Shown here piece after piece: positions 4,701 to 51,468 of a stretch of DNA of 56,855 bases. Numbering within the stretch: position 1 is the first letter of the stretch; the number at the start of each line of letters is the position of its first letter. Origin of the DNA: an uncultured Bacteroidales bacterium (lineage in GTDB: Bacteria > Bacteroidota > Bacteroidia > Bacteroidales > Bacteroidaceae). Position numbers and translations under genes: made by a program. The DNA lies in NCBI GenBank assembly GCA_902779845.1, contig CACZCZ010000026.1:1-56855 (forward strand), read 5' to 3'. Below the pieces are notes generated by a model that ran no database searches, was not told the DNA's origin, and saw nothing but the letters and a program-made list of their open reading frames with translations.

Positions 4701-6179
4701 TTCCACACCTACGGCGGCGACAGCCTCCACCTCTTCCCCGGCGGCATCCGCATCTCCGATGCCCAGATCTACGACCGCTACCACCGCAAAGACAACCTCG
4801 CTCACCACGCCATCCTCAACGGCGAGCTGCGCTACGAACATTTCAAGAATCTGCGCTACACCTTTGACATCGCTGCCGACGATTTCCTGGGCTATGACTT
4901 TAAGGACTTCGGCGACCAAAGCTTCTACGGCACAGTCTATGCCGATGGCAACGTGCATCTGGCTGGACAACCTGGCGAACTGACTGTGGACATCAAGTGT
5001 ACGCCCCTGCAAGGCACCGTCTTCACCTATAATGTCTCTTCGCCCACGACGCTCACGGATAATGAGTTCATCACCTATAAGGAGAAAAACCACCTGGTCC
5101 CCCTTTCGCCCCCCGAGGGTGGCACTGATGCTCAATCCAATACTGATGATGGTAATGTAGCCCCCTCGGGGGCAGAAGAGGGGGCCACTTCTGACGAACC
5201 CATGGACATGCACATCAACTTTGACTTGGACATCACGCCTGCGGCTCAGATGCGTCTGCTGATGGACGCCCGTTCCGAAGACTACATCAACCTCTTCGGT
5301 GACGCACACATCCGCGCCACCTTCCACAACCGCGGGCGTTTCCAGATGTACGGCACCTATCGCGTCGATCACGGCACCTATCGTCTTTCGCTGCAGGATG
5401 TCATCCGCAAGGAGTTCCGTTTCCAGCAGGGAGGCACTCTTGTCTTTGGCGGCGATCCCATGAAGGGCACCCTGAACCTGCAGGCCATCTACACCGTTCC
5501 CAGCGTGTCGCTGAACGACCTGGCTGTAGGTAATAACTTCTCCAGTAGTAACGTTCGTGTGAACTGTCTGATGAACATCGGCGGGCGTGCTGAACAGCCA
5601 CAGGTCACCTTCGACTTCGATATCCCCAACGTCAACGAGGACGAAAAGCAGATGGTACGCTCGCTCATCTCCACCGATGAGGAACGGAACATGCAGGTCA
5701 TCTACCTCCTGGGCATCGGACGCTTCTACACGCAGGACCTCACAGCCGGACAAAGCCAGACCAATGCCGCCATGCAGAGTCTGCTCTCCTCGACCATCTC
5801 AGGGCAGTTGAACAACCTCCTCACAAGCGTCATCGGGAACAGCAACTGGAACTTCGGCACGAATCTTTCAACAGGCAACCAAGGCTGGAACGAGGTCGAT
5901 GTCGAGGGAATGCTCAGCGGCCGCCTTCTCAACAACCGTCTTCTCATCAACGGCACCTTCGGCTACCGCGACACGCCCATCGCCAACACCAACTTCATTG
6001 GCGACTTTGATGTGCAGTGGCTGCTTACCAAGTCTGGCAACATCAGCCTGAAAGCCTACAGCGAGACCAACGACCGCTACTTCACCAAGACCGCCCTCAC
6101 CACCCAAGGCATCGGCATCCAGGTGAAGAAGGATTTCAATACACTGCGCGAGCTCTTCCGCTTCCGCCGCCGCAAATAG
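1743..6179 (+). CDS. TamB-like translocation/assembly protein (DUF490)
   Basis: A very large protein (up to 1478 residues) with one N-terminal membrane segment (about residues 28-47, LTVYLFLGLYLGLWLF). A long beta-rich AsmA/TamB-like body follows, ending in the conserved C-terminal TamB domain (about 1150-1478: GRFQMYGTYRVDHGTYRLSL, FRFQQGGTLVFGGDPMKG, GLFQ-like closing strands). TamB-like proteins bridge the inner and outer membrane and act in outer-membrane protein assembly or lipid transport. The coordinates use the longest open frame (TTG at 1743), but a promoter overlaps that codon. The true start probably lies near 1791-1824, where no ATG exists. An in-frame Gly/Pro/Glu-rich insert (about residues 1118-1150) comes from a palindromic element. 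The next gene starts 15 bases downstream. Confidence 0.88.
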   Translation: MLRTQKNTTFALTNRNITIKTLRHIIRLTVYLFLGLYLGLWLFTISPACQRWLAGKASDVLSKELGTHVEIGNARLGLFNRVVLDDILLLDQQADTLLAATRASTKINLMELTQGRIRIGSVQLFGYDIRLHRPTWDAPYNFQFIIDRFASKDTTSTPLDLAISSIIIRRGRLSHDIDSVPISNHFTPAHLYFTDLNLKASVSDLTKERCSLEINEFNFTESRSGLTVEDFRAKFWGDRQNVQLTNLWMRLPHSTITIPAISISNGFTRWLENNAVFHIRGEVTPSDLAPFDQRLQRFQQPIHLTLQGRKRAEGILLQRLMLSGKGLSIEAKAEARLQASADSSASIKLASWHATLPHCYVRQAFYQPILELLSAMEPRPILPVSTANMLSRIGDISLTSEASGSTTRQFITASVKAHTAIGGIEARGDLQAQDKFNIQAETTDVLIAKLLGKDSGIPVDNITLMANASGSIRQRQLQGTATLKNLVLKETQLSTVETRFTISPYHLNASVNLEDDEYDLQLSTDLHSQKEMKLTAEALEHIEGHIGLERVRVHREEKDYELNRLHFSTANDDRGHHILVSGDFIDAHADGRFHYASIVPAVRQRLHEVLPSLISAPKAASEGLNEQVTFSIHLWNTTQLLSLADIPLRLPEPGYIEGELNMSKSEFAVMADFPHLEYASEDLRAVSMLARQEGDSILSFVTLQRMMELGPMDLSVLAEGKNDKLNTTFAWDDHNIPAERGELTTSTLFFKDQESHLGADIRILPTDIVISDTVWNVNEARVKYDKGVVDVNGFRIAQGGRHLRVDGRVSDNPADTLYADLRSIKLEYVFGIIDFHDVEFEGQTTGKVKVHDIFKDIAVDADLHVDDLILNGGLLGEAQVLGGFGRKDDRAIDLDILIREPLRGEFSTVRGIVKPGHEPGRGLDLDIRANYLNTYFINYFTEGIFNNLQGRATGYAHLYGPFKQLDLEGELVLDTLDVGIDVLGTRFHTYGGDSLHLFPGGIRISDAQIYDRYHRKDNLAHHAILNGELRYEHFKNLRYTFDIAADDFLGYDFKDFGDQSFYGTVYADGNVHLAGQPGELTVDIKCTPLQGTVFTYNVSSPTTLTDNEFITYKEKNHLVPLSPPEGGTDAQSNTDDGNVAPSGAEEGATSDEPMDMHINFDLDITPAAQMRLLMDARSEDYINLFGDAHIRATFHNRGRFQMYGTYRVDHGTYRLSLQDVIRKEFRFQQGGTLVFGGDPMKGTLNLQAIYTVPSVSLNDLAVGNNFSSSNVRVNCLMNIGGRAEQPQVTFDFDIPNVNEDEKQMVRSLISTDEERNMQVIYLLGIGRFYTQDLTAGQSQTNAAMQSLLSSTISGQLNNLLTSVIGNSNWNFGTNLSTGNQGWNEVDVEGMLSGRLLNNRLLINGTFGYRDTPIANTNFIGDFDVQWLLTKSGNISLKAYSETNDRYFTKTALTTQGIGIQVKKDFNTLRELFRFRRRK
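5097..5186. repeat. Palindromic GC-rich element pair inside the TamB-like gene
   Basis: Two inverted G/C blocks (CCCCCCGAGGG and CCCCCTCGGGGGC) flank a 40-base Asn/Asp-rich spacer. They are read in frame as PLSPPEGGT and APSGAEEGAT just before the C-terminal TamB domain. This is a variant of the element family found elsewhere in the window. Confidence 0.65.
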
Positions 6180-6194
6180 AAACACAAAGAACAA

Positions 6195-7718
6195 ATGAAA
6201 CAGGTACAAAGTTTGATTATAATTGTAATGGCGGCAGTAACGCTGCTCACGATCGGCGGCTGCAGCAGGGATGACCATGCTGCAGAGCCGCTGGAAACCA
6301 TTGACTTCAGCCACGCACGCCTGGCGGTGTGGACGGACAGCGGTAATGAGTACTACACGAAGATTCTGTATCCCGAGGCGAAATGTGTATATCTGGAGAG
6401 TCTCAGCAGTATGGTGCAGAACCTCAAGCAGGGCAAGGTGGACGGCTTCATCATGACACGTAGCATAGTGACGACCCTGCAGAAGGAGGGTGTGGATATC
6501 GACTTCCTGCCGGACACGCTGTGCAATGTGCCGTGTGTGTATGCCTTCACGGTGTCGGAGCGCGGCAAGATGTTGTGTCAGCAGATGAATGCCTTTCTGG
6601 CCTCCATCAAGGCCGACGGCACGCTGGAGCGCCTGCGGCAGAAATGGATGGAGAGCGACGAGAGCGACCGCACATTCATCAAGTCGCCACTCACGGGCGA
6701 GAACGGTACCATCGTGGTGTCATCCTCAGCGGAAACGGTGCCCTACTCCTATATGAAAGACAACGAGCTGACAGGCTTCGAGATAGAGATCATCGATTTG
6801 TTCTGTGCTGCCAACGGCTACGACTACGCGGTGAAGACCAACAACTTCGACGCGATGCTGGCCGATGTGTCGCTGGGCAAAGTGGACATCGCCGCCAGCT
6901 ACATCGAATGGTTGCCGGACCGCGAGGGGAATGTCCTGTTCTCCACACCCACGGACGAGGGCTACTGCGTGATGGTGGTCCGTTCGGACGAGGTCAGCCA
7001 TATGGGACTCCTCAGCATGCTCGCGCGCGGCATCAAGAACACACTGATTGTGGAGGACCGCTGGAAGATGATTCTCGAAGGAATGTACGTGACAATTGTC
7101 ATCACCATCTTCGCAGCGCTGCTGGGCACACTGCTAGGTTTCCTCGTCTATCTGCTCTATCGCGAGAACATCAAGGTGTTGAACAAGTGCATTGACCTGT
7201 CGGTGACAGCGTTGCAAGGCGTGCCAGACTTAATCCTTCTGATGTTCTTCTACTATGTCGTCTTCGGAAAATTCGACGTGGGCGGCACGGTGGTGGCTGT
7301 CATCGCCTTCGGAATCATGCTGAGCGTCTCGGTATTCATTATGCTGAAAAGCGGTTCCGAGAGCATTCACCGAGGACAGACGGAAGCGGCGCTGGCGCTG
7401 GGATTCACGGAGCGGAGGACTTACCTGAAGTTCATACTGCCGCAGGTGCTGACAGTCTTCTTCCCGACCTATAAGAAAGCACTCGTAGATATGATGCTTT
7501 CCACCGCCATTGTGGGCTATGTGGCCGTGCAGGACCTAACACGCATGGGCGACCTCATCCGTGCGCGTACCTTCGATGCGTTCGTGCCGCTGATCACCGT
7601 CTCCATCATCTACTTCCTGCTCTCCTGGCTGATGCTGAAGGGCATGGGCGCGCTACTGTCGCAACTGAATCCAAGAAACCGCAAACCTAAAACGATACTG
7701 AAAGGAGTGAAGCAATGA
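6195..7718 (+). CDS. Fused amino-acid ABC transporter receptor/permease lipoprotein
   Basis: A 507-residue protein starting with a lipoprotein signal (LLTIGGC lipobox, Cys at about 23). Residues 35-270 carry two SBP_bac_3-like receptor segments, the second with SSSAETVPYSYMKDNELTGF, typical of polar amino-acid receptors. Residues 290-490 form a membrane permease of the GlnP/HisM kind with the EAA loop EAALALGFTERRTYLKFILP. The receptor and permease are one chain, as in GlnP-type transporters. A lipidated N-terminus is unexpected for a chain whose receptor must face the periplasm, but it fits inner-membrane anchoring. The substrate is unknown. It overlaps the ATPase gene by 4 bases (ATGA), so the two are translationally coupled. 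Confidence 0.88.
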   Translation: MKQVQSLIIIVMAAVTLLTIGGCSRDDHAAEPLETIDFSHARLAVWTDSGNEYYTKILYPEAKCVYLESLSSMVQNLKQGKVDGFIMTRSIVTTLQKEGVDIDFLPDTLCNVPCVYAFTVSERGKMLCQQMNAFLASIKADGTLERLRQKWMESDESDRTFIKSPLTGENGTIVVSSSAETVPYSYMKDNELTGFEIEIIDLFCAANGYDYAVKTNNFDAMLADVSLGKVDIAASYIEWLPDREGNVLFSTPTDEGYCVMVVRSDEVSHMGLLSMLARGIKNTLIVEDRWKMILEGMYVTIVITIFAALLGTLLGFLVYLLYRENIKVLNKCIDLSVTALQGVPDLILLMFFYYVVFGKFDVGGTVVAVIAFGIMLSVSVFIMLKSGSESIHRGQTEAALALGFTERRTYLKFILPQVLTVFFPTYKKALVDMMLSTAIVGYVAVQDLTRMGDLIRARTFDAFVPLITVSIIYFLLSWLMLKGMGALLSQLNPRNRKPKTILKGVKQ

Positions 7719-9420: not shown

Positions 9421-11301
9421 CTACCCTGCCCTTTCTGAGAGTTCAAGCCAGCGCATTTCGGCGGCATCGAGTTCTTCTTGGAGGATGGGGAGGCGTTTGC
9501 TCTTGGCGGTGAGGTCATCGATGGAGAGGGTGCCGCTGCAGAGGGCGCTTTCGAGTTCTTTTTTCTCTGCTTCGAGAGCTGCAATGGTGGCTTCGAGGGC
9601 TTCAAACTCGCGCTTTTCTTTGTAGGAAAGGCGAAGACCCACCCCCCGACCCCTCCCGTCAGGGAGGGGGGAAGACCCCTCTAAATCTACCCGTAAGGGG
9701 AGACTTGCAACTCCTTTAGCCGCTTTCCCCATACATTTCTTCGCGCCAGCCCTCTCCCCGCCCTCACGGGAGGGGCTGGAGGTGGGGCTGTTCTTCTCCC
9801 ATTCCCTATACTGTGTATAATTCCCTGGGAAATCTTTGATAACGCCATCGCCTTTGAAGACGAGGAGGTGGTCAACGACTTTGTCCATGAAGTAGCGGTC
9901 GTGGCTGACAACGATGACGCAGCCCTTGAAGTTCTTGAGGTAGTCCTCGAGGATGTTCAGTGTCACGATGTCGAGGTCGTTAGTGGGCTCGTCGAGAATG
10001 AGGAAGTTGGGGTTCTGCATCAGCACGGTGCAGAGGTAGAGGCGCCGCCGCTCGCCGCCCGAGAGTTTGTAGATATAATTCTGCTGTTGCAGGGGTGTGA
10101 ACAGGAAGTGCTGCAGGAACTGCATCGCGGTGAGATGGCGACCGCCGCCGAGATCCACGTATTCCGCTATCTGCCGTACGGCATCGATGACCTTCATCTC
10201 CTGATTGAACTGCATCCCTTCTTGCGAGAAATAGCCAAAGCGCACGGTCTCGCCCACGACGAAGCGCCCGCTGTCAGGCTGCACCAATCCCAGCAACATC
10301 TTGATGAACGTGCTCTTGCCCGTTCCGTTGGCGCCTACGATGCCCATCTTCTCATAACGCGAGAAGTTGTAGTAGAAATCCTTCAGGATGACGCGCTCCG
10401 TGGAATTCGGGTCGTCGGGGCGTGGCGGGAACGTCTTGCTGACATACTGCGCCTCGAAGATCTTGGAACCGATGTAGGTGCTATTCACCTGCAGCGACAC
10501 CTTCTCCTCGGTGATGCGCTGTTTGGCTACGCGTTCGAGGTCGTAGAAGGCATCCTCGCGCGAACGAGCCTTGTGGCCGCGTGCTTGGGGCATCCGTCGC
10601 ATCCACTCCAACTCACTCCTATATAAATTATTCGCGCGCGCGATGGTTGCGTTGGTCACGTCGATGCGCTCTTGCCGCTTTTCAAGATAGTAGGCATAAT
10701 TGCCGCGATAGGTGTAGAGTGTCTCGTTGTCCAGCTCCAGAATGAGCGAGCAGACACGGTCGAGGAAATAGCGGTCGTGGGTCACCATGAGCACCGTCAT
10801 ACTCGACCGCGAGAGATAAGTCTCCAGCCATTCAATCATCTGAAGGTCAAGATGGTTTGTGGGCTCGTCGAGGATGAGGAGGTCCGGTTCCTGACACAGC
10901 ACGTTGGCCAGCGCCACACGCTTGAGTTGTCCTCCAGAGAGGTGGCTGATGGGCTGTGCATGGTCTGTGATTTTCAGCTTTGTCAGATACTCCTGAATGC
11001 GCCGCGGTTCCTCCTTGCAATGCCAAAGGCAAGCCTCCATCACGGTCATGTCCTTGGGGTAAGTGGGCGTCTGCTCGAGATAGGCCACACGCAGGTCACG
11101 CCGATAGGTGATGGTGCCGCCCTCAGGTTCCTCATGTCCTGCCAGGATGTTCAGCAGCGAGGTCTTGCCAGTTCCGTTCTGCGCTATCAGTCCCACGTGC
11201 TGCCCCTCGGCAATGCCAAAGCTGATATCGTGGAAGAGCGTCTTGTCGCCAACAGAAAAAGTGAGGTTGTCAACCTGCAAATAAGGGTTCACGAGTGCCA
11301 T
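9421..11301 (-). CDS. ABC-F family ATPase (Uup/YbiT-like)
   Basis: A soluble tandem ATPase of 626 residues from the ATG at 11301 (MALVNPYLQVDNL). The frame extends further upstream, but that stretch is the divergent promoter region. First ABC domain: Walker A AQNGTGKTS, signature LSGGQLKR. Second: GANGTGKST, signature LSGGERRR, Walker B FLILDEPTNDLD. The family acts on translating ribosomes. The linker between the second ATPase and the C-terminal coiled coil (EFEALEATIAALEAEKKELE) is expanded by about 45 residues encoded by two palindromic elements (NSPTSSPSREGGERAG ... SSPLPDGRGRGVGL). A weak -7 box (TACTTTCG) lies near 11320. It is divergent from rho. Confidence 0.93.
   Translation of the reverse strand: MALVNPYLQVDNLTFSVGDKTLFHDISFGIAEGQHVGLIAQNGTGKTSLLNILAGHEEPEGGTITYRRDLRVAYLEQTPTYPKDMTVMEACLWHCKEEPRRIQEYLTKLKITDHAQPISHLSGGQLKRVALANVLCQEPDLLILDEPTNHLDLQMIEWLETYLSRSSMTVLMVTHDRYFLDRVCSLILELDNETLYTYRGNYAYYLEKRQERIDVTNATIARANNLYRSELEWMRRMPQARGHKARSREDAFYDLERVAKQRITEEKVSLQVNSTYIGSKIFEAQYVSKTFPPRPDDPNSTERVILKDFYYNFSRYEKMGIVGANGTGKSTFIKMLLGLVQPDSGRFVVGETVRFGYFSQEGMQFNQEMKVIDAVRQIAEYVDLGGGRHLTAMQFLQHFLFTPLQQQNYIYKLSGGERRRLYLCTVLMQNPNFLILDEPTNDLDIVTLNILEDYLKNFKGCVIVVSHDRYFMDKVVDHLLVFKGDGVIKDFPGNYTQYREWEKNSPTSSPSREGGERAGAKKCMGKAAKGVASLPLRVDLEGSSPLPDGRGRGVGLRLSYKEKREFEALEATIAALEAEKKELESALCSGTLSIDDLTAKSKRLPILQEELDAAEMRWLELSERAG
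9634..9680. repeat. Palindromic GC-rich element in the ABC-F gene, copy 1
   Basis: Core CCCCTCCCGTCAGGGAGGGG preceded by GACCCACCCCCC. On the coding (minus) strand it is read as SSPLPDGRGRGVGL without a stop. Confidence 0.8.
9746..9800. repeat. Palindromic GC-rich element in the ABC-F gene, copy 2
   Basis: CGCCAGCCCTCTCCCCGCC followed by CTCACGGGAGGGGCTGG and GGTGGGGCT. It is read on the minus strand as SPTSSPSREGGERAG. It is 65 bases from copy 1, in the other reading phase. Confidence 0.75.
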
Positions 11302-11346
11302 AGGTGATGAATTTTGGTGCGAAAGTAAGAAAAAAGCATGAAAAAC

Positions 11347-11377
11347 TTTGCTGAATGGACGGAAATCGTTACCTTTG
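11347..11377 (+). promoter_or_regulatory. Bacteroidetes promoter of rho
   Basis: TTTG at 11347-11350 and TACCTTTG at 11370-11377 have 19 bases between them, the usual spacing. This gives a leader of about 65 bases before the rho ATG at 11450. Confidence 0.75.
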
Positions 11378-11449
11378 CACTCGATTTTTGGAGAGTTACC
11401 CTGCAAAAAGCGGTTAACTCCTTCTTATTTCCTCTTATTTACTTTATTT

Positions 11450-22497: not shown

Positions 22498-25400
22498 ATG
22501 AACAATAACAAACTATCTATATTCTCACCTGAGTCCCCCTCTCCCACGGGAGAGGGGTTAGGGGTGAGGCCTTCCGATACTGCTGGCCAAATCGATTCCG
22601 CCCCCTCCCTTCTCTCTCCCCTCTTTGAAAGAGAGGGGGCAGGGGGTGACTCTTCCGACGAAGCCGCCCTGCAAGTGGATGAGCGCCAGCTCACCCGTCA
22701 GGCACTCTGGGAGCGCAAGCTCCTGGACTTCAGCCTGCGCAACAACCTGCTGAACACGCGCTTCGGCAAGCGTGCCCTGCAGCTGTCCCTGTCTGACGTC
22801 GCACATCTCGAGGACCGCCTGCAGATGGGCGAGAGCTACTCCATCGCCCCCAAGGAAGCCGCGAAGACATCAGCTGATTCCGAAGGAGCAGCCACCGTGC
22901 CTGTCGCGTCAGTGTCGGGACACTCCCTCCCCACCCCGCTCACCCCCTCCGAGCTGAAGCCCATCCTCACGAATCTCTATCGTGGTGCCCGCACAGCGCT
23001 GGAGGAGAACGGTGCCAACGCCCTCTTCATCGCCATCGGCATGCTGAAGTGGTATGTCACCGAGAAGAGCGAGCAGCCCCGCTATGCCCCCATCCTGCTG
23101 TTGCCCGTGGACATCGTGCGCAACGGCACCGGTTATCTCGTGAGGATGCGCGACGAGGAGACGACCCTCAACATCACGCTCGCAGAGTTCCTGCGCCAGC
23201 AGTACAAGTTGCTCGTGCCCGCCCTCGACCCGCTGCCCACCGATGAGCACGGCGTGGATGTGCCCAAGGTCTTCGCTGCCATCCGCCAGGCTGTCAGCCA
23301 GCACCCGCAATGGGAGGTCCTCGACGCCTGTGCCCTCGGCCTCTTCTCGTTCAATAAGTTCGTCATGTGGAACGACATCCACAGCAATGCCGCCCGTCTG
23401 CAGGAGAGCCCTGTCGTGCAGAGCCTCGTGGAGCGGCGCCTGACATTGGAAGCCCTCGACAAAGAGGTTGATGTCCACGACTTCGACCTCCACGCCCGCC
23501 CCTCCGATGTGGCCACGCCCATCAGCGTCGATTCCTCACAGCTGGAAGCCGTCATCGAGAGCGGCGAGGGCAAGAGTTTCATCCTCTACGGCCCTCCCGG
23601 AACGGGCAAGTCACAGACCATCACCAACATGATTGCCAACGCCCTCTATCAGGGCAAGCGCGTCCTGTTCGTTGCCGAGAAGATGGCAGCCTTGCAGGTC
23701 GTGCAGAAGCGTTTGGCAAAGATAGGTCTCGACCCGTTCTGTCTGGAGCTCCACTCCAACAAGGTCACCAAGACCCACTTCCTCGAACAGCTGCAGCAGG
23801 CCTTGGATGTCACCCACGGCCATGTCAGCGAGGACTTCCAGCAACGCTCCGAAGAGCTCTATGCCCTGCGCCAGCAGCTCAACGGCTATATGCAGGCCGT
23901 CCACCGCGTCGGTGCCAGCGGCCTCTCCGTCTATGACTGCATCGAGCGCTACATGCAGTTGAGTGCCGATGGCGAAGCCGCCGACCTCTCCCTGCCCTTT
24001 GCGCTCCCCCAGCAGAAGACCGCCGCCGACCTCGACGCCCTCACCGACATCCTCACTAAGCTTGATGCCGTCTTCCAGCTCACCGGCCACCCCATGGGTC
24101 ACCCCTTGACGGGTCTTGCGCCCAAGGGCGACCGCCGCGAGGACTTCGCGCAGCTGGAACTGTTGCTGCAGCAGCTGAGCGCCGTGCCGGCCGAGCAGCC
24201 CACCGCCCTCGTCGCGCAATGGGAGGCCATCCAGCAGAAATGGTTCCTGCCGCGCTTCTTCGCCACCGGTTCGTTCCTCAAGCGTCTGCAACGCATCGAT
24301 GCATCCCTGACCAAGGGCCACATCGCCGAATTCGTCGCCAATCTGTCACAGGTGACGACGCCCACCGTCAGCGCAGAATGGCTGCGTCACAAGGATGAGT
24401 GGCGCGACTGGTACCAATGGTCTTCGCAGCGTGCTACCATCATCTCACAGGGCTGGCAGCCTGTCGTGGACTTCATCGAGGAAGGCCACAGCGGCGAGGA
24501 AGCCGCTCGTGCCCTCGCGCGTACCTTATATAAAGAGTGGGCCTTGCAGATGATTGACTCCGACGAGGAACTCCGTCGTTTCAGCGGCCTCGTCTTCGAG
24601 GATGTCATCGCCCGCTACCGCCAGCTCACAGACCATTTCCAGGAGCTTACGAAGAAAGAGCTCTACTGCCGTCTAGCCGCACGCATCCCCGCCATCTCCA
24701 TCGAGGCGGCCACGGGTTCCGAGGTCAACATTCTCAAGCGTAACATCGCCAACGGCGGTCGTGGCACCAGCATCCGACATATCATCGAGCAGATCCCCAA
24801 CCTCATGCCCAAGCTCTGCCCCTGTATGCTCATGAGCCCCATCTCCGTGGCGCAGTTCATTGACCTCAAGACGCCCAAGTTCGACCTCGTCATCTTCGAC
24901 GAGGCTTCGCAGATGCCCACCGCAGAGGCCGTCGGCGCCATCGGTCGTGGCAAGGCGCTCATCGTCGTGGGCGACAACAAGCAGATGCCACCCACCAGCT
25001 TCTTCGACACGCAGCAGGTAGATGATGAGGATGCCGAACTCGACGACCTCGACAGCATCCTCGACGACTGTCAGGCCCTCTCGCTGCCCGACCACTATCT
25101 CGCCTTCCACTACCGCTCGAAGCACGAGTCGCTCATTGCCTTCTCCAACCAAGAGTACTACGACGGCCGCCTCTTCACCTTCCCCTCTGCCGACGACCGC
25201 CAGCGCAAGGTGTCGCTCGTCAAGGTCGAGGGTGTCTATGACAAGGGCGGCAAGCGCAGCAACCGTGCCGAGGCTGAAGCCGTCGTTAGCGAGATTGTCC
25301 GCCGCCTGACCGATGCCGAGCTGTCACAGCGCAGCATCGGTGTCGTAGCCTTCTCCGTGGCACAGCAGAACCTCATCGAGGATGTCTTCATGGAAGCCAT

Positions 25401-26409
25401 CAGCGGCAAACCGGAATTAGAGGCCCGCGCCCTCCAGAGCGAGGAACCCATCTTCATCAAGAACCTCGAGAACGTGCAGGGCGACGAGCGCGACGTCATC
25501 CTCTTCAGCATCGGCTACGGCCCCGACAAGGACGGCAACGTCAGCATGAACTTCGGCCCGCTGAACAACCGCGGCGGCGAGCGCCGTCTGAATGTGGCTG
25601 TCTCGCGTGCACGTTATGAGATGATAGTCTTCTCCACCCTGCGCGCCGAGCAAATCGACCTGCGCCGCTCGCAGGCCGCCGGCGTAGAAGGACTGCAGAA
25701 GTTCCTGAAATATGCCGAGGGAGGAGACTCACCCCTCACCCCTCTCCAGCAAAGAGGGGAACAGGAAGAGGGCCTTTCCGCAGACATCGCCGCAGCCCTC
25801 AACAGCCTCGGCTACAAGACAGCGCTCAATGTGGGCCGCTCCAAGTTCAAGGTCGATGTGGCCGTCGTGGATCCTCAAGACCCCGACCGCTATCTGATAG
25901 CCATCCTCATCGACAACCACGCCCGCAACGCCACGAAGATAGCCCGCGACCGTGAGCTCACACAGCCCGCTGTCCTCGAAGGACTCGGCTGGAAGGTGCT
26001 GCGCGTCTGGAGCATCGACTGGCTGCAGAACCGCCAGCGCGTGCTGGACACCATCGTGGCTGCTATCGAGACGCGCAAGACCGCCACGAAGGCTGCCCCC
26101 CTCACCCTCACACAACCCAAGATTGTCGAGGAGAAGGCCAAAGCCGTGAAACCCGCAGCCATCGTCAGCAAGGACGGCACCAAGCGCGACATCGACGACA
26201 TCCCCGATGCCACCATCGACAAGGTCGTCCTGCAGATTGTCAACGAACAGATTGCCATCCCCCTCGACGGCATCAAGCTCGCTGCCAACCGTATGCTCGG
26301 CTACCAGCGCCGCACCACCCGCATCGACAACGCCATCACCCGCAGCGTCGCCCGTCTCATCAGCGCCAAGCAGATCCTGCGCGACGGCGACACCCTCAAA
26401 GCAATTTAA
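22498..26409 (+). CDS. Large superfamily I helicase (DUF4011/DUF3320 type)
   Basis: 1303 residues. After a repeat-encoded N-terminus (to about residue 60), ERKLLDFSLRNNLLNTRFGKRALQLS marks the DUF4011 region. Helicase motifs follow: I LYGPPGTGKSQTITNMIAN, II DLVIFDEASQMPTAEA, III VVGDNKQMPPTSFF, then VQGDERDVILFSIGYG and VI RRLNVAVSRAR. A restriction-endonuclease-like part (RSKFKVDVAVVDPQ, about 1110-1190) and a DUF3320-like tail end it. Such proteins are ATP-driven DNA/RNA helicase-nucleases, often suspected in repair or defence. It lies between cysD and cysN on the same strand, an unusual place. Elements at 22527-22653 and 25724-25770 are read in frame. Confidence 0.9.
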   Translation: MNNNKLSIFSPESPSPTGEGLGVRPSDTAGQIDSAPSLLSPLFEREGAGGDSSDEAALQVDERQLTRQALWERKLLDFSLRNNLLNTRFGKRALQLSLSDVAHLEDRLQMGESYSIAPKEAAKTSADSEGAATVPVASVSGHSLPTPLTPSELKPILTNLYRGARTALEENGANALFIAIGMLKWYVTEKSEQPRYAPILLLPVDIVRNGTGYLVRMRDEETTLNITLAEFLRQQYKLLVPALDPLPTDEHGVDVPKVFAAIRQAVSQHPQWEVLDACALGLFSFNKFVMWNDIHSNAARLQESPVVQSLVERRLTLEALDKEVDVHDFDLHARPSDVATPISVDSSQLEAVIESGEGKSFILYGPPGTGKSQTITNMIANALYQGKRVLFVAEKMAALQVVQKRLAKIGLDPFCLELHSNKVTKTHFLEQLQQALDVTHGHVSEDFQQRSEELYALRQQLNGYMQAVHRVGASGLSVYDCIERYMQLSADGEAADLSLPFALPQQKTAADLDALTDILTKLDAVFQLTGHPMGHPLTGLAPKGDRREDFAQLELLLQQLSAVPAEQPTALVAQWEAIQQKWFLPRFFATGSFLKRLQRIDASLTKGHIAEFVANLSQVTTPTVSAEWLRHKDEWRDWYQWSSQRATIISQGWQPVVDFIEEGHSGEEAARALARTLYKEWALQMIDSDEELRRFSGLVFEDVIARYRQLTDHFQELTKKELYCRLAARIPAISIEAATGSEVNILKRNIANGGRGTSIRHIIEQIPNLMPKLCPCMLMSPISVAQFIDLKTPKFDLVIFDEASQMPTAEAVGAIGRGKALIVVGDNKQMPPTSFFDTQQVDDEDAELDDLDSILDDCQALSLPDHYLAFHYRSKHESLIAFSNQEYYDGRLFTFPSADDRQRKVSLVKVEGVYDKGGKRSNRAEAEAVVSEIVRRLTDAELSQRSIGVVAFSVAQQNLIEDVFMEAISGKPELEARALQSEEPIFIKNLENVQGDERDVILFSIGYGPDKDGNVSMNFGPLNNRGGERRLNVAVSRARYEMIVFSTLRAEQIDLRRSQAAGVEGLQKFLKYAEGGDSPLTPLQQRGEQEEGLSADIAAALNSLGYKTALNVGRSKFKVDVAVVDPQDPDRYLIAILIDNHARNATKIARDRELTQPAVLEGLGWKVLRVWSIDWLQNRQRVLDTIVAAIETRKTATKAAPLTLTQPKIVEEKAKAVKPAAIVSKDGTKRDIDDIPDATIDKVVLQIVNEQIAIPLDGIKLAANRMLGYQRRTTRIDNAITRSVARLISAKQILRDGDTLKAI
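22527..22653. repeat. Two palindromic GC-rich elements at the helicase 5' end
   Basis: Copy 1 (22527-22570) has CCCCTCTCCCACGGGAGAGG. Copy 2 (22600-22653) has CTCTCTCCCCTCTTTGAAAG with AGAGGGGGCAGGGGGTGACT. They are read as SPSPTGEGLGVRP and SPLFEREGAGGDS. Both lie within 160 bases of the start codon, before the first conserved residues. Confidence 0.75.
25724..25770. repeat. Palindromic GC-rich element in the helicase gene, 3' part
   Basis: CACCCCTCACCCCTCTCCAG CAAAGAGGGGA, read as SPLTPLQQRGEQEEGL. It sits between the helicase core and the nuclease-like region, i.e. at a domain boundary. Confidence 0.7.
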
Positions 26410-29932: not shown

Positions 29933-32566
29933 ATGATATACCCACAGTCGTTTGAAGAAAAGATAGGAATGAGTGATGTGAGGGCAATGCTCAAGCGGTA
30001 TTGCCTGAGCACCATGGGCGAAGAGCGCGTGGATGGTTTGACGTTCAGCACCGATGTGGAGCAGATACGTGAATGGCATCGACAGGCGGGCGAGTTCAAC
30101 CGTCTTATAGAAGAACAGGACTTCCCCGATCAAGGCTACTACGACCTGCGTCCTGTGTTGGCACGCATCCGTGTTGTTGGCACATATATGGAGGTGGAGG
30201 AACTATTTGCCCTCAAGCGGTCGTTGGAGACCATTGAAGCAATCATCAAAACCCTCACCCCCCTCCCTTCTGAGGGGGAAAGCATCGCTAAGACTCCCTC
30301 CCCGCTCCCCCGTGAGGGGGAGGGCCTTGCTACGGTCGAGAGTCCCTACCCTGCCCTGTCGCGCATGGTGAACGCCCGATTGTCTGGAGATTCCGCTCCC
30401 CTCCCTGACGGGAGGGGTCAGGGGGTGGGTCTTCTCATCAGGAAGATAGACGCCGTTCTGGACAAATTCGGCCACGTGAAGGATTCTGCCTCGGCTGAGC
30501 TGCAACGTATCCGCCGCGAGCTGGCCAGCACTGAAGGCAGCATCGGACGTGTGCTCAACAGCATCTTACGCGCCGCACAGGCTGAGGGAACTGTGGCCGA
30601 TGATGTCACACCGACCATGCGCGACGGCCGTCTGGTCATCCCCGTAGCACCCGCTTTGAAACGCAAGCTCAAGGGCATCGTCCACGACGAGAGCGCAACG
30701 GGCAAGACGGTATTCATTGAGCCGCAGGAGGTGGTGGAAGCCAACAACCGTGTCAGAGAACTGGAAGCAGAGGAACGGCGCGAGATCATCAGGATTCTAC
30801 GTGAACTGACAGATGCCGTGCGGCCGTTGGCTCCACAGCTGATGGAGAGCTATGAGATGCTGGCCGACGTGGAGCTCGTGCGTGCCAAGGTACAACTGGC
30901 CCGCGAGATAAAGGCCACAATAAGCACCGAACCGGAGATTGCACCCCACCCGTTCATTGACTGGACACTGGCTGTACATCCGCTACTGGAGCGTTCGCTG
31001 GCGAAGCACGGCAAAAAGATGATTCCTTTGGACATCGAGCTAACACGCCGCCAGAGAATCCTGCTCATCTCTGGTCCCAATGCCGGTGGAAAGAGTGTCT
31101 GCCTGAAGACCGTAGGACTACTGCAATATATGCTGCAATGCGGATTGCCCATCACCGTGGGCGAACGCTCTCGCGTGGGCATCTTCGAGCATATCATGAT
31201 AGACATTGGCGACGAACAAAGCCTTGAAGATGAACTCTCGACCTACAGTTCACACCTGCTGAACATGAAACAGATGATGCGCGCTGCCGACCCCTCCACG
31301 CTGCTGCTCATTGATGAATTCGGCGGTGGCACCGAGCCTCAGATAGGCGGTGCGATGGCAGAGGCAGTATTGAAGCGCTTCGTGCGTCAAGGGGCTTTTG
31401 GCATCATCACCACGCACTACCAGAACCTGAAGCATTTTGCCGAGGAGACAGACGGTGTGGTGAACGGCGCCATGCTCTACGACCGCCATCTGATGCAACC
31501 GCTCTTCCAGTTGCAGATAGGGCAGCCTGGATCGTCGTTCGCCGTAGAGATAGCGCGCAAGATTGGCATCCCAGAGGAGGTCATCGCCGATGCCTCGGAA
31601 ATCGTAGGCCGCGACTACATCAACGCCGACAAATGGCTGCAGGACATTGTGCGCGACCGCCGCTACTGGCAGCAGAAGCGCGAGGCCATCCATGGACATG
31701 AGCGCAAGATGGAACAAACCATCGAACGCTATGAAACAGAGATGGAGGAACTACAGCGACAGCGCAAGGAGATCCTGCGCAAAGCCCGCGGGGAAGCGGA
31801 ACAACTGCTGCAGGATGCCAATGCTCGCATTGAGAATACCATCCGCGAGATTCGCGAGGCGCAAGCCGAGAAAGAAGAGACACGCCGCACACGTCAGCAG
31901 CTCGAAGAGTTCAAGATCAAGACCATCGAGCAGCAAGAGAGTGCCGATGACGATGAGATAACTCGCAAGATGGAGAAAATCAGGAGGAGGCAGGAGAGAA
32001 AGAACCGACCCTCCCCCGACCCCTCCCGTGAGGGAGGAGCGCAGTCCTCAGGAAAACAAAAAGGTAGCAATGCGCCAGCTCTCCCCTCCATTACGGGAGG
32101 GGTTGGGGGTGGGTCTTTCGTTCGCATCAAAGGCCAATCCTCTGTGGGCCAGCTCCTCAGCATCAGCGGAAAGACGGCCACGGTGCTCTTCGGGCAGATG
32201 CGCACGCAGGTGAAAGTGGATAGGCTCGTGGCCGCACAGCAGCCTAAGAAGGAGGATACTGCAAGCGGATTCACGTTCCTCGGTCGTGAGACACAACGCG
32301 AGATGCGCGAGAAGAGCCTGAACTTCAAGCAGGACATTGACGTGCGCGGGATGCGCGCTGAGGAGGCCTTGAATGCCGTCACGCATTATATTGACGATGC
32401 CATACAGGTTGGCGTTGCACGCATACGAATCTTACATGGCACGGGAACAGGCGCACTGCGCCAGATCATCCGACAGTACCTGCGCACCGTCCCCAGTGTC
32501 CTCGATGCTCGCGACGAACATGTCCAGTTCGGAGGCGCCGGCATCACCGTTGTGGATTTGGAATAA
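29933..32566 (+). CDS. mutS2: MutS2 DNA/ribosome-associated ATPase with Smr nuclease domain
   Basis: 877 residues, longer than the usual 780-840. The order is: N-terminal clamp region (MIYPQSFEEKIGMSDVRAML); ATPase with Walker A SGPNAGGKSV, Walker B LLLIDEFGGGTEP and FGIITTHYQNLK; a long coiled coil (about 570-680); and a C-terminal Smr domain (DIDVRGMRAEEALNAVTHYID, HGTGTGALR). MutS2 suppresses recombination and, in some bacteria, acts on collided ribosomes. At least four GC-rich palindromic elements are read in frame: about residues 105-170 in the clamp (PLPSEGE, PLPREGEG, PLPDGRGQGVG) and about 690-730 between coil and KOW-like strand ([19 protein letters not shown]). All motifs remain intact. 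Confidence 0.95.
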   Translation: MIYPQSFEEKIGMSDVRAMLKRYCLSTMGEERVDGLTFSTDVEQIREWHRQAGEFNRLIEEQDFPDQGYYDLRPVLARIRVVGTYMEVEELFALKRSLETIEAIIKTLTPLPSEGESIAKTPSPLPREGEGLATVESPYPALSRMVNARLSGDSAPLPDGRGQGVGLLIRKIDAVLDKFGHVKDSASAELQRIRRELASTEGSIGRVLNSILRAAQAEGTVADDVTPTMRDGRLVIPVAPALKRKLKGIVHDESATGKTVFIEPQEVVEANNRVRELEAEERREIIRILRELTDAVRPLAPQLMESYEMLADVELVRAKVQLAREIKATISTEPEIAPHPFIDWTLAVHPLLERSLAKHGKKMIPLDIELTRRQRILLISGPNAGGKSVCLKTVGLLQYMLQCGLPITVGERSRVGIFEHIMIDIGDEQSLEDELSTYSSHLLNMKQMMRAADPSTLLLIDEFGGGTEPQIGGAMAEAVLKRFVRQGAFGIITTHYQNLKHFAEETDGVVNGAMLYDRHLMQPLFQLQIGQPGSSFAVEIARKIGIPEEVIADASEIVGRDYINADKWLQDIVRDRRYWQQKREAIHGHERKMEQTIERYETEMEELQRQRKEILRKARGEAEQLLQDANARIENTIREIREAQAEKEETRRTRQQLEEFKIKTIEQQESADDDEITRKMEKIRRRQERKNRPSPDPSREGGAQSSGKQKGSNAPALPSITGGVGGGSFVRIKGQSSVGQLLSISGKTATVLFGQMRTQVKVDRLVAAQQPKKEDTASGFTFLGRETQREMREKSLNFKQDIDVRGMRAEEALNAVTHYIDDAIQVGVARIRILHGTGTGALRQIIRQYLRTVPSVLDARDEHVQFGGAGITVVDLE
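30250..30436. repeat. Three palindromic GC-rich elements in the mutS2 5' part
   Basis: 30250-30283 CCCCCTCCCTTCTGAGGGGG; 30292-30327 CCGCTCCCCCGTGAGGGGGA; 30392-30436 CCCCTCCCTGACGGGAGGGG followed by GGGGGTGGGTCTTCT. The peptides are TPLPSEGES, SPLPREGEG and [14 protein letters not shown]. They add about 60 residues to the clamp region. Confidence 0.8.
32005..32120. repeat. Two palindromic GC-rich elements in the mutS2 3' part
   Basis: 32005-32040 CCCCTCCCGTGAGGGAGGAG, read SPDPSREGGAQ. 32073-32120 GCGCCAGC then CCCCTCCATTACGGGAGGGG then GGTGGGTCT, read [14 protein letters not shown]. They sit in the linker before the Smr-side strand. Confidence 0.8.
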
Positions 32567-33623: not shown

Positions 33624-33660
33624 AAGACCCGTCCCCTGTCCTCCCCGTGAGGGAGGGAGC
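33623..33660. repeat. Palindromic GC-rich element between GT2 and DUF6452 genes
   Basis: AGACCCGTCCCCTGTC with CTCCCCGTGAGGGAGGGAG, beginning at the GT2 stop codon. This intergenic copy may form a transcript hairpin. Confidence 0.7.
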
Positions 33661-33682
33661 TGATACATTCAAGACAGAGCAC

Positions 33683-34216
33683 ATGTCCCATCGATTAAGC
33701 TTTTTAAAAGAGCATTTCACAAAGGTAATCACCCTCTCCCTCACGAGAGGGGCCTGGGGGTGTATCTTTCTTTTATTCTTCTTTTTCAATCTGACCAGCT
33801 GCGACACATATAACTGTCTGCTGGAAACAAAGGTGCAGTATGTGTATGGGTTCTATAACTCCGGAGGCTCAATAGCCATCCATGACACACTGACCATCAC
33901 AGCCCTGGACATCAACACCGTGCTCGCAAATCGCCTCGTCGATGCTAGTCAAGTGAAACTGCCCGTAAGTTACTACAACGATGCAGACACGCTGGAATTT
34001 CTGATTCAGGGAGAGGACGGCGAAGGGAGCGACACACTGTACATCGAGAAGAAGAACATCGCACATCTGGACGACGTGTCGTGTCCGGCTCACATGTGGC
34101 ACTACATCACCCGTGTGTATTCCACACACCACCTCATAGACACCGTACTCATCAGCGAACCCAACATCAACTACGATGGCAAGGAGAACCTGCAGATATA
34201 TTTCCGCACCGATTAG
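33683..34216 (+). CDS. DUF6452-like lipoprotein
   Basis: 177 residues from the ATG at 33683 (an upstream start at 33647 lies in a repeat). A hydrophobic run IFLLFFFFNLTSC gives a lipobox, so the protein is probably lipidated and exported. Mature strands include FYNSGGSIAIHDTLTITALDI. The pairing with the next gene, DUF6048-like, with which it overlaps by 41 bases, is typical of Bacteroidales. The function is unknown. The segment just before the hydrophobic run (ITLSLTRGAWGC) is encoded by a palindromic element (33728-33770), so the signal peptide has been rebuilt by a repeat. Confidence 0.7.
   Translation: MSHRLSFLKEHFTKVITLSLTRGAWGCIFLLFFFFNLTSCDTYNCLLETKVQYVYGFYNSGGSIAIHDTLTITALDINTVLANRLVDASQVKLPVSYYNDADTLEFLIQGEDGEGSDTLYIEKKNIAHLDDVSCPAHMWHYITRVYSTHHLIDTVLISEPNINYDGKENLQIYFRTD
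33728..33770. repeat. Palindromic GC-rich element in the signal-peptide region of the DUF6452-like gene
   Basis: ATCACCCTCTCCCTCACGAG, then AGGGGCCTGGGGGTGTATCT. In frame it reads ITLSLTRGAWGCI, directly joined to the hydrophobic signal core. Confidence 0.65.
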
Positions 34217-47750: not shown

Positions 47751-47755
47751 ATCCC

Positions 47756-47919: not shown

Positions 47920-47941
47920 GTGACATGTGTCTGCGCGTAGT

Positions 47942-47994: not shown

Positions 47995-48020
47995 GGGTCA
48001 GGCGAGGGAGTAGTAGTGTC

Positions 48021-48357: not shown

Positions 48358-48372
48358 GATGCTGAAAAGAAA

Positions 48373-48747: not shown

Positions 48748-48848
48748 TGTAAATACTGTTTTATGATGGTTCATGAAATAAATGCTCCGATGCTCATCCC
48801 TTCCTTCGGCATCGATTCCTGTTTCTGTTCTCTGGTTGCCATGTATGG

Positions 48849-50153
48849 TTATAGTACGCCTTTGCTGGAGGGCAGCTGCATGTGGTGGATGTCGCGGCGG
48901 ACAGCCATGCGGAGGGCACGGGCAAGGGCTTTGAAGATGCCCTCAATCTTGTGGTGTTCGTTCTGTCCTTCAGCCTTGATATTCAAGTTCATGCGGGCTG
49001 CATCCGAGAGGCTCTTGAAGAAATGCAGGAACATCTCGGTAGGCATCTCCCCTACCCGCTCGCGGTGGAATTCGGCATCCCATACGAGCCAGGGGCGGCC
49101 GCCGAAGTCGAGGGCTACGCTGCAGAGGCAGTCGTCCATGGGCAGGGTATATTCGACAGCCGCCGAGGCACCGTCCTTGCTGAAGCCATAGCGCTCGATG
49201 CCGCGCTTGTCGCCGAGGGCTTTCAACAGCGCTTCGCCTAGGGCGAGTGCAGTGTCCTCGATGGTGTGGTGCTCATCCACATGGAGGTCGCCCTTCACGC
49301 GGATATCGAGGTCTATGCTGCCGTGTTTGGCAATCTGCTCCAGCATGTGGTCGAAGAAGCCGAGGCCTGTGGAGATACTGCTCTTACCAGTGCCGTCGAG
49401 GTTCACGCTGACGGCGATATCCGTCTCCTTCGTCGTACGGGTGACGGTTGCCTGTCGCACCCCGGCATAGACCATCTCTGCAATCTGCTGCCAAGAATGT
49501 ACAATGTACGATGCACAATGGGCGCTACTCCCCTCGCCCACGGGAGAGGGGCCGGGGGTGAGGCCTATTATCAACGCCTTACACCCTAGGTTCTTGGCCA
49601 GCTGTGCATCGCTCTCGCGGTCGCCGATGACGTAGCTGTTGGCGAGGTCATAGGAGCCATCCATGTATTTCGTGAGCATCGCGGTTCCGGGTTTGCGGGT
49701 GGGCAGGTTGTCCTCGGGGAAGCTGCGGTCGATGAGGATGTCGTCGAAGGTGACGCCTTCGCCTGCAAGAATCTCCAGCATCAGGTTGTGTGTGGGCCAG
49801 AAATCCTCCTCGGGGTACGAGGGTGTGCCGAGCCCGTCCTGGTTAGACACCATCACAAAGCGGTAGTCGGTGTGCTGGCGCAAGAAGCGCAGGGCGCTGA
49901 TGGCACCGGGCACAAAATGGAACTTCTCGAAGGAGTCTATCTGCTCGTCGGCAGGCTCCTGCAGGATGGTGCCGTCGCGGTCGATGAATAAAAGACCCAC
50001 CCCCGTGCCCCTCCCGTCAGGGAGGGGGGCAGACCCACCCCCGACCCCTCCCATTAGGGAGGGGAGAGGCTGGCGCGTAGATGCAGACCCACCCCCAGCC
50101 CCTCCCGTTAGGGAGGGGAGAGGCTGGCGCGTAGATGCATGATTATTCGACAT
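48849..50153 (-). CDS. hisB: Bifunctional histidinol-phosphatase / imidazoleglycerol-phosphate dehydratase
   Basis: 434 residues against about 355 for the family. From about residue 54 comes the HAD phosphatase ([14 protein letters not shown], nucleophile Asp), then the IGP dehydratase with [18 protein letters not shown] and [18 protein letters not shown]. It catalyses steps 7 and 9 of histidine synthesis. The extra length is repeat-encoded: residues 1-53 ([20 protein letters not shown]... up to GRGTGVG) from three palindromes, including the start codon, and a fourth ([14 protein letters not shown]) joining the two catalytic domains. Both catalytic sites are intact. It is 96 bases after hisC. 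Confidence 0.95.
49526..49565. repeat. Palindromic GC-rich element between the two hisB domains
   Basis: CTACTCCCCTCGCCCACGGG AGAGGGGCCGGGGGTGAGG, read leftward as [13 protein letters not shown], exactly at the HAD/dehydratase boundary. Confidence 0.75.
49992..50153. repeat. Three palindromic GC-rich elements and start-codon module at the hisB 5' end
   Basis: Three copies in a row (49992-50030, 50030-50084, 50085-50140), the last two with GCGCCAGCCTCTCC outer sequence on the coding strand. They encode [24 protein letters not shown] and [13 protein letters not shown]. The outermost ends in ATGTCGAATAAT, which provides the hisB start and is shared with hisC. Confidence 0.85.
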
Positions 50154-50193
50154 TGCGGTATTTCGTTTTTTCGATATTACGTTATTACGAAGA
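50144..50193. repeat. CGTTATTACG-type repeat at the hisC-hisB junction
   Basis: TTATTCGACATTGCGGTATT, TCGTTTTTTCGATATTACG and TTATTACGAAGAAAGAC. It is a near-copy of the spacer at 51351-51412. Confidence 0.65.
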
Positions 50194-50209
50194 AAGACAA
50201 CCCGCAGGC

Positions 50210-50250
50210 TTCTCCCCTCCCTAACGGGAGGGGTTAGGGGGTGGGTCTTC
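50210..50250. repeat. Palindromic GC-rich element at the end of hisC
   Basis: CTCCCCTCCCTAACGGGAGG GGTTAGGGGGTGGGTCT. An intergenic copy touching the hisC stop; could form a transcript hairpin in the his operon. Confidence 0.75.
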
Positions 50251-51365
50251 TATTTATACTGTCTTAACGCCCCCAGCAGTGCATTGTTTTCCTGCGGGGT
50301 GCCGATGGTGATGCGGAGGCAGTTGCCGCAGAGCTGCACACGCGAGCGGTTGCGGACCACGATGCCGCGGTCGATGAGATAACGATAGATGCTGTCGGCA
50401 TCGGTCATGCGTGCCAGGAAGAAGTTAGCATCGGTGGGATACACAGCCTTGCAGATGGGCAGCTCGGCCACAGCGGGCAGCAGGTGTTCACGTTCGCGCA
50501 ACAGCGTGGCACGCCAGTACTGGACCTGTTGGATGTCGGCCAGCATCTTCATGGCCTGCTGCTGGGTGAGTTGATTGACGTTATAGGGGTACTTGACCTT
50601 GTTGAACAGCGCTATGATCTCCTCGGAGGCGAAAGCCATGCCCAGACGGATTGCCGCCGACGCCCACAGCTTGGAGAAGGTGTTCAGCACGATGAGGTTG
50701 GGGAAGCGGTCGAGGTCGAGGCGGAAGGGGCGTGCGTCGTTGAAGTCGCTGTAGGCCTCATCGACGACCACAATGCCCTGAAACTCCGTGAGCACACGCT
50801 CGATGGCCTTGCGGTCGAGGGCATTGCCCGTGGGGTTATTGGGCGAGCAGAGCCAGATAACCTTGGTGTGGTCATCACAGGCTGCCAGCAGGCGGTCTGC
50901 ATCGAGCGAGAAGTCTTCATTGAGTTCTACGGGACGGTACTCGACATCGTTGATGTCGGCACAGACGCCATACATGCCGTAGGTGGGTGAGATGGCCACC
51001 ACGTTGTCCTGCCGCGGCTCGCAGAAGATGCGATAGACGAGGTCGATGGCCTCATCGGAGCCGTTGCCCAGGAAGATGCGGCTGGCAGGAACCTCCTTCA
51101 CCACCGACAGTTTCTCCTTCAGTTCCTCCTGCAAGGGATCGGGATAGCGGTTGAAGCCTGCATTATAGGGGTTCTCGTTGGCATCGAGGAATACATTGGC
51201 CACACGACCTTTGAACTCATCGCGCGCACAAGAGTATGGTGTGAGCTTCCAGATGTTGGGGCGAACAAAAGAACCCACCCCAGACTCACCCCTAGCAGAC
51301 CCACCCCCGACCCCTCCCGTTAGGGAGGGGAGAGGCTGGCGCGTAGATTCATTATTATTCGACAT
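50250..51365 (-). CDS. hisC: Histidinol-phosphate aminotransferase
   Basis: 371 residues. After about 33 repeat-encoded residues, [18 protein letters not shown] begins the normal HisC, with [52 protein letters not shown] and the PLP Lys in [17 protein letters not shown], then [10 protein letters not shown] and CLRITIGT. It transaminates imidazole-acetol phosphate to histidinol phosphate. The start ([20 protein letters not shown]) is almost identical to that of hisB, because both begin inside copies of the same composite repeat. It lies between hisD and hisB. Confidence 0.95.
51271..51365. repeat. Palindromic GC-rich element and start-codon module at the hisC 5' end
   Basis: CCCCTCCCGTTAGGGAGGGG with the GCGCCAGCCTCTCC outer sequence, then ATGTCGAATAAT at the start codon. 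A degenerate second fragment (51271-51297) encodes ARGESGVGS. The same order is found at the hisB start. Confidence 0.85.
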
Positions 51366-51412
51366 TGCGTTATTACGTTATTGCGAGATTTCGTTATTAC
51401 GTTATTACGAAG
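51351..51412. repeat. CGTTATTACG-type repeat at the hisD-hisC junction
   Basis: TTATTCGACATTGCGTTATT, ACGTTATTGCGAGATTTCG, TTATTACGTTATTACGAAG and AAAGAC. Shared with the spacer at 50144-50193. Confidence 0.7.
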
Positions 51413-51429
51413 AAAGACTGCCCGCAGGC

Positions 51430-51468
51430 ACTCCCCTCCCTAACGGGAGGGGTTAGGGGGTGGGTCTG
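51430..51468. repeat. Palindromic GC-rich element across the hisD stop
   Basis: CACTCCCCTCCCTAACGGGA GGGGTTAGGGGGTGGGTCT. It spans the last hisD codons (GGRPTP) and the stop, so it also rewrote the HisD C-terminus. Confidence 0.75.

Follow-up and report, generated by a model that had tools for sequence, protein, structure and literature searches.

Palindromic inserts in genes and cistron junctions of a Bacteroidales genome as probable ends of small mobile elements with a DUF559 nuclease gene

We analysed a stretch of 56,855 nucleotides from an uncultured Bacteroidales bacterium (assembly GCA_902779845.1, contig CACZCZ010000026.1, positions 1 to 56,855; hereafter the window), in which short GC-rich palindromes lie in or beside genes for a TamB-domain protein, an ABC-F ATPase, a DUF4011-type helicase, CysN, MutS2, a glycosyltransferase, a DUF6452 lipoprotein and the histidine enzymes HisB, HisC and HisD (Table 1). 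Most of these palindromes are halves of a larger unit and represent the ends of mobile elements. The original prediction, made from the letters of the window, proposed about 20 such palindromes, mostly inside genes; it overlooked their pairing, their fixed orientation, their role at cistron junctions, the distinct subfamilies (among them SF1 to SF4, see below) and the link to genes of the DUF559 family.

The palindromes themselves were confirmed. The quoted cores are present exactly at positions 50099, 51311, 22539 and 32083, and the window contains 22 GC-rich hairpins with 7-bp arms (6–16 in five first-order Markov controls), 16 of them at places already given in the prediction; with arms of at least 8 bp there are 10 hairpins, as compared to 0–4 in first-order Markov controls. 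A consensus copy, CTCCCCTCCCTNACGGGAGGGGTNNGGGGGTGGGTCTT, has an 8-bp hairpin with a 4-base loop, followed by a conserved tail. Using a covariance model built from 12 window copies (R1), we found 19 matches in the window at E<0.01 (including the 12 training copies) and at least 148 matches in the host genome (2.92 Mb, 47 contigs) at E<=0.1, with 150 of 1786 candidates scored; the window makes up ~2% of the host genome yet has 12 of these matches, and is thus enriched. The exact pattern CTCTCCCNNNGGGAGAG gave no match in the host genome, and an Rfam scan returned tRNA alone at the gathering threshold and nothing for the palindromes. Most window copies are inside reading frames; the copies at 33624–33661 and 50208–50249 sit directly after stop codons, and the copy at 51427–51468 provides the stop of hisD.

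Table 1. Palindromic units and single palindromes in the window, with the genes that carry them (SF, subfamily; G, genome; L, locus)
Feature	Positions	Strand	Basis and remarks
SF3 pair in TamB-domain reading frame (1743-6179, + strand)	5097..5195		By eye; TamB by Pfam; resembles MutS2 linker 2 of G055 and the DUF559 flanks of L367 and L377 (flank likeness by eye)
SF1 pair in C-terminal linker of ABC-F ATPase (9421-11406, - strand)	9634..9790		R1; 25 orthologues aligned
Two palindromes of other types at the N-terminus of the 1303-aa DUF4011-type helicase	22532..22655	+	R1; different palindrome-type N-terminus in relative G041; the types also flank DUF559 in L355, L361, L369 and L389 (by eye)
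Single palindrome in the same helicase	25724..25765	-	R1; SF1 copy at this place in G041
Single SF1 element in CysN	27651..27691	+	R1; G041 (91% identical) and others lack it
SF4-type copies and an SF1 copy around host residues YPALSRM, MutS2 linker 1	30248..30433		Absent in G041
SF1 pair in MutS2 linker 2	32005..32117		R1; other species have other subfamilies at this linker
Pair beginning at the glycosyltransferase stop codon; the apparent signal peptide of a DUF6452 lipoprotein (ATG 33683) is partly encoded by the right half	33624..33768		R1, Pfam; signal by eye
Single element between the two domains of hisB	49524..49566	+	Absent in G041; present in G107, G129 and G133
Unit at the hisC-hisB junction, carrying two additional left halves in tandem	49992..50249		Gives HisB its start codon and an N-terminal tag; sister G107 and G041 have the empty site (17 bp)
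hisD-hisC junction unit	51296..51468		Source of the HisD stop (...RPTP*) and of the start and tag of HisC

As seen in the host genome, all neighbouring copies separated by a gap of 21–200 bp face outward (34 of 34), and neighbours more than 1 kb apart have mixed orientation. We then used 147 sources (the window, 20 host stretches, 115 loci from a pattern scan of named genomes and 11 stretches of relatives), which overlap the host set, contain homologous loci and were partly picked by the exact SF1 pattern; here 94 of 99 neighbours at 26–200 bp are outward-facing. The 89 pairs that were kept as units are 103–267 bp long, 24 of them 110–119 bp. Ends from one unit resemble each other more than ends from different units do (edit distance 4.96 vs 5.85, p 0.003, for 23 own units; 4.76 vs 6.36 for the 89 units, which come from mixed genomes), in part because they have a subfamily in common. 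Folded as single-stranded DNA, the hisD-hisC unit reaches -55.3 kcal/mol (z -11.4), and 90% of unit flanks have an A immediately before GACCC. Two inverted palindromes with a short spacer are the architecture of REPINs, the paired form of REP (repetitive extragenic palindromic) sequences; the extragenic location is not shared, with many copies in frames, and the universal GTAG/CGTC tag is absent (within 15 nt of 338 elements we counted CTAC 102, GACG 50, GTAG 28 and CGTC 16 times). The long terminal inverted repeats might also suggest MITEs (miniature inverted-repeat transposable elements) of a DDE-type insertion sequence, which we regard as very improbable: a target duplication of at least 5 bp was found in none of the 72 units, out of 89, that have locatable termini (short direct repeats at their borders: 3 bp in 8 units vs 5.3 expected, 4 bp in 2 vs 1.7 expected), and the gene linked to these ends belongs to a nuclease family, not to the DDE transposases.

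This gene encodes a DUF559 protein. Outward neighbours spaced 200–6000 bp apart number 11, and one such pair (L184, 503 bp) encloses a single open reading frame (ORF) of 127 aa, identified by Pfam as DUF559; its distances to the R1 ends are 12 and 21 bp. DUF559 matches were found in 37 of the 61 genomes of the genus (a few of them weak matches in long ORFs), and we examined 70 DUF559 loci, 30 from the search and 40 further near-full-length matches. Hairpins (arms of at least 6 bp, G+C at least 75%, within 200 bp of the gene) are present on both sides in 53 of the 70 loci and in 0 of 45 control positions. The left and right flanks of a locus score as inverted repeats with a median of 55, as compared to 21 for flanks of other loci, 22.5 in direct orientation and 17 for 79 control ORFs; scores above 44 are seen in 44/70 DUF559 loci and 1/79 control ORFs. 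Outward R1 matches (E<=0.1) lie within about 250 bp on both sides in 40 of the 70 loci (19/30 and 21/40 in the two sets). By eye, SF1 ends surround DUF559 in L374 (G041; 513 bp end to end), L371 (G033; 559 bp) and L184, SF2 ends in L387 and L418 (host genome itself) and also in G019, and other palindrome types of the window in L355, L361, L369, L389, L399, L367 and L377. The probable parent elements have a DUF559 gene between outward inverted palindromic ends; among the window ORFs there is no DUF559 element gene, only ends. Between the SF1 ends of one host unit (C7:28800-29057, L070), the spacer (...YDEGRPQRLQDLCFSVLRFSNDEVRNQIEYVVQTIKN...) is a C-terminal portion of DUF559 that shares its reading frame with the two ends (E 1.8e-10).

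All 70 DUF559 domains have the motif EVDGxxH; against PDB the family matches 3hrl ('Endonuclease-Like Protein', E 5.8e-17), and against PADLOC, weakly, a homing endonuclease model (E 0.0019). By its predicted nuclease fold and conserved motif, DUF559 is a Vsr-like PD-(D/E)XK nuclease family. The DUF559 frame runs on both sides into an apparent nucleotide-sugar epimerase in two loci (L392 and L408, by eye), extends upstream only in 7 and downstream only in 6, and is free-standing in 55 (some frames being cut by the locus end). In L392 and L408 the DUF559 element and its palindromes appear to lie in frame inside the epimerase-like protein, an intein-like placement, and in L351 a DUF559 element, preceded by a stop codon, occupies what is apparently this site.

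The prediction had likened the palindromes to Rickettsia palindromic elements, as in-frame mobile inserts in linkers or at protein ends, and orthologues bear this out: inserts that are missing from orthologues were found in CysN, MutS2 and the hisB region (hisC-hisB), the alignments place them in linkers or at ends, and the HisB copy lies between its two mapped domains. The CysN copy is also absent in G016, G042, G003, G029 and G060; at that codon position G019 carries an SF2 element, and the linkers of G043 and G002 are longer and of other kinds. For MutS2 we fetched 30 loci from a search of the 61 genomes and assigned subfamilies by eye. Its linker 2 carries SF1 in G000, G018 and G043, SF2 (diverged or typical) in G041, G040, G019 and G042, SF3 in G055 and SF4 in G003, and no such pair in G029, G011, G015 and G060 (G010, G016 and G048 are ambiguous); in linker 1 the copies around the host residues face outward. 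The ABC-F linker is a mosaic like that of MutS2 (25 of 30 fetched loci aligned). Other carriers include proteins with ATP-synthase, gyrase B, cytidylyltransferase and SusD domains. It had been stated that the same peptides at the same places in unrelated genera would point to ancestral linkers: within the genus, where we made the comparison, the sites are indeed shared, and presence and subfamily vary by species. Ancestral low-complexity linkers, or slippage, which the prediction had offered as a mode of spread, are scarcely credible; the MutS2 and ABC-F host linkers do vary across all species, but the same element DNA is read in all three phases (spanning frames use all three) and on both strands, it occurs at junctions too, and there are relatives without the element.

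The hisC-hisB junction shows empty and filled states in close relatives. The distance between the conserved ends is 17 bp in G107 and G041 vs 267 bp in G000, and in the alignment of G000 and G107 the hisB side is identical over the stretch shown and the hisC side has a few-base difference. The unit replaces about 13 host bases, among them the ATG of hisB, so that HisB now starts within the unit. At the left border the AGA of the element equals a host AGA in several species. This match and the lost host bases would fit recombination or microhomology template switching with no dedicated enzyme, an explanation we consider unlikely given the sharp termini, the fixed orientation and the linked nuclease gene. 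Among 30 species (labels by eye), 8 have the pair, 3 the right half only and 18 neither, and one could not be read. Mapped onto a tree of hisC DNA, the pair state requires 7 changes, 6 of them forced by starred branches, and is unclustered (shuffled mean 7.1; the bootstrap did not settle); G000 and G107 are sisters with full support, yet differ at this junction. The tree does not separate gain from loss or allele exchange. At the same junction, G067 (L278) and G123 (L279) have other repeats, tandem arrays of the GCGGTTGCATCCGC and AACTTTCAACTTTC types.

We examined the placement of units using stop-to-stop frames, which are not curated genes. A long frame crosses the whole unit in 32/81 units vs 236/359 random placements, and so the predicted location mostly inside genes holds for the window copies and fails for the wider set. 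In 29/81 units vs 13/359 random placements, the spacer contains an ATG that is in frame through the hairpin and is followed by 100 aa or more past the element. Incoming ORFs (at least 120 aa) stop at the unit edge in 29/129 cases vs 5/582 in controls, and inside the near end in 19/129 vs 25/582. Stops at 24–26 bases into the unit (12/129) fall within the hairpin loop (e.g. GTGAG, GTTAG), and their reading as CCCCCTAACCCC was rejected; stops of the CCCCTAACCCC/CCCCTGACCCC kind at 10–13 bases account for only 3/129. Pfam named 8 of 10 start-cassette proteins, and in several start cassettes the element peptide runs into an apparent lipoprotein signal (by eye; e.g. the SusD protein of L148). Locus L167 (1238-2654) encodes an outer-membrane-like protein of ~407 aa with an element-type peptide (APLPWGGVGGGFA) near the likely signal cleavage site.

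The placement at stop codons would suit intercistronic regulatory RNA elements under selection, as would a canonical G-quadruplex motif on the outward (tail) strand of 291/339 R1 elements (mean 52 after tail shuffling; none on the other strand). Such a role has a low probability in our view: there are the units in spanning frames, there is no Rfam match at the gathering threshold, the junction state changes often, and the element set was picked with an SF1 model. The G-quadruplex was rejected as a general explanation; it is not universal, SF2 copies often being without the fourth G tract (by eye).

R1 matches are widespread in the genus (45/61 genomes at E<=0.001), and in the family they occur in 52/201 genomes and 11/30 genera at E<=1e-5, with 17 matches in each of two near-complete two-contig assemblies (G192 and G226). 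Of the 80 loci listed by the pattern scan of named genomes, 3 are not from Bacteroidales, and most of the others are from ruminant-gut metagenome-assembled genomes (MAGs) by their titles; Planctomycete and Anaerolineae contigs (L141, L151 and L215) match the hairpin-tail pattern too, by convergence or by transfer. In IMG/VR, a single 77.5-kb contig has three element stretches (L316-L318), either a prophage or mis-sorted host DNA. Over the 61 genomes, R1 and DUF559 counts are correlated (Spearman 0.61), and DUF559 is present in 34/45 genomes with R1 vs 3/16 without; in these data MAGs are incomplete, some DUF559 matches are weak, phylogeny is uncontrolled and high R1 counts (at least ~106) are lower bounds.

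Several observations weigh against a family of mobile elements with DUF559 as the parent gene. Hairpins stand on one side only in 13/70 DUF559 loci and on neither in 4/70 (9 and 36 of 45 controls), and the own flank is the best among all right flanks in only 15/70 loci, because subfamilies are shared between loci. In MutS2 linker 2 the non-carriers have similar or somewhat shorter linkers, so the native linker was replaced and not merely lengthened. The spacer in MutS2 linker 1 is host sequence, and only 17/86 comparable spacer cores match another unit; these two results suggest that single ends may also spread, and on the second a shared spacer was rejected as the identity of a unit. Among the genomes, a DUF559 match is lacking in five that have 10 or more R1 matches (at least 107 in G018), R1 matches number below 3 in three that have DUF559, and counts of long Y1 (HUH) transposases correlate with element counts about as well as those of DUF559 (Spearman 0.58). 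A recognisable DUF559 remnant is found in only 1/89 unit spacers (that of L070). DUF559 could then be a passenger, with another system moving the units, some of which merely carry the nuclease gene. Most units being without the gene and some element-rich genomes without a DUF559 match, this is the most serious of the alternatives, although an improbable one: most of the sampled DUF559 genes have hairpins on both sides, their ends are subfamily-specific, and no other linked enzyme gene was found.

With 0.61 and 0.58 nearly equal, co-occurrence alone cannot choose the enzyme; linkage does. That the elements are REPINs moved by the long Y1 transposases of these genomes would agree with the hairpin ends, the paired architecture and the lack of target duplication, and long Y1 genes are present in 22/24 genomes with at least 30 elements vs 15/37 with fewer (they were searched with a profile of 11 members, the Pfam model being too weak for the long family). 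We nevertheless doubt it strongly, as the genes are unlinked: 29 Y1 loci gave one weak match, a family-like hairpin lies within 300 bp in 2/20 (with the ORF poorly located in 3 of the 20, L301, L306 and L315), and the long Y1 genes are themselves rich in hairpins of other sequences, at a higher density within the genes than outside (1.45 vs 0.71 per kb, 17 loci). Three Y1-like ORFs in fetched loci are 881–2415 bp from the nearest element. The long Y1 (HUH) proteins form a multi-copy family (L001, L296-L315). The predicted spread by a trans-acting enzyme is plausible with DUF559 as the linked candidate, whereas linkage to a REP-associated tyrosine transposase was looked for and not found.

We propose that the palindromes are the ends of small mobile elements with a full form of ~500 bp carrying a DUF559 gene, the gene-less units being non-autonomous derivatives or relatives, and we assign this a probability of about 0.7. 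The architecture, the in-frame placement, the turnover and the DUF559 link are read from sequence. A complete element would consist of an outward palindromic end (in SF1, AGACCC... and the hairpin), a DUF559 gene of ~125 codons and a second, inverted end, and the window units would have the same ends with a short spacer replacing the gene. The DUF559 nuclease, in cis and trans, may cut DNA, with repair copying the element in (homing-like), and selection would remove copies that break frames. Copying by cut and repair would explain why target duplications are lacking, why host bases are lost and how subfamilies come to be exchanged at a single site. For a wider claim we see roughly even chances: that these elements form a new class, with a lone Vsr-like DUF559 nuclease as the only gene and hairpin ends specific to each subfamily on either side of it; that they home into genes and junctions without target duplication and are tolerated because their ends are open frames; and that they give rise to gene-less pairs, sources of linkers, N-terminal tags, starts of signal peptides, stops and starts, with rival subfamilies replacing each other at the same sites.

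Such elements would offer a function and a mobile lifestyle for DUF559, listed in Pfam as of unknown function, and would give a parent to coding palindromes of a class previously without one. The window insertions affect MutS2, CysN, ABC-F and three His enzymes, and similar ones would account for unusual linkers and N-termini annotated in gut Bacteroidales. With empty and filled alleles in sister species, homing, fitness cost and translation effects are directly testable. The helicase that carries palindromes in the window (22498-26409) scores 1434 of 1500 bits, just below the NCBIfam cut-off, for the anti-phage protein ProA.

The predicted lack of a described equivalent in Bacteroidales is uncontradicted by the literature searched, which mostly excludes subscription papers, and nothing on hairpin-flanked mobility turned up in the portions of the DUF559 literature covered. 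Homing endonuclease genes, including those of the Vsr-like EDxHD type, are solitary nuclease genes at conserved gene sites, without target duplication and sometimes in frame. The elements here share these features; unlike homing endonuclease genes, they have palindromic inverted-repeat ends and many gene-less derivatives, and no splicing element was seen. We know of no parent gene for the Rickettsia palindromic elements. Those elements are likewise in-frame palindromic inserts in unrelated genes (PMC10969869, PMC3733652); they belong to another phylum, presumably with another sequence, and the likeness is one of mode. REP/REPIN systems with RAYT resemble our units in their paired palindromes, variable spacer, predicted single-stranded DNA hairpin and a parent gene with cognate flanks (PMC3116915, PMC3733652, PMC6006769), and differ in that here a DUF559 nuclease, not a Y1 transposase, is linked, copies are often in frame and the GTAG/CGTC tag is not universal. 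Vsr and DUF559 Vsr-like endonucleases share the DUF559 domain and the PD-(D/E)XK superfamily and are described as of the mismatch-repair type (PMC12907096), in a text where 'palindrom' and 'homing' do not occur. In Legionella, repeated DUF559 segments are reported to be recombination hotspots (PMC12308824); DUF559 is repeated in both cases, whereas a transposase accompanies the Legionella segments and palindromes are not discussed in the passages concerned. Lastly, intragenic ERIC/RU elements are also small mobile repeats within genes, in another host and with another sequence (PMC2759123).

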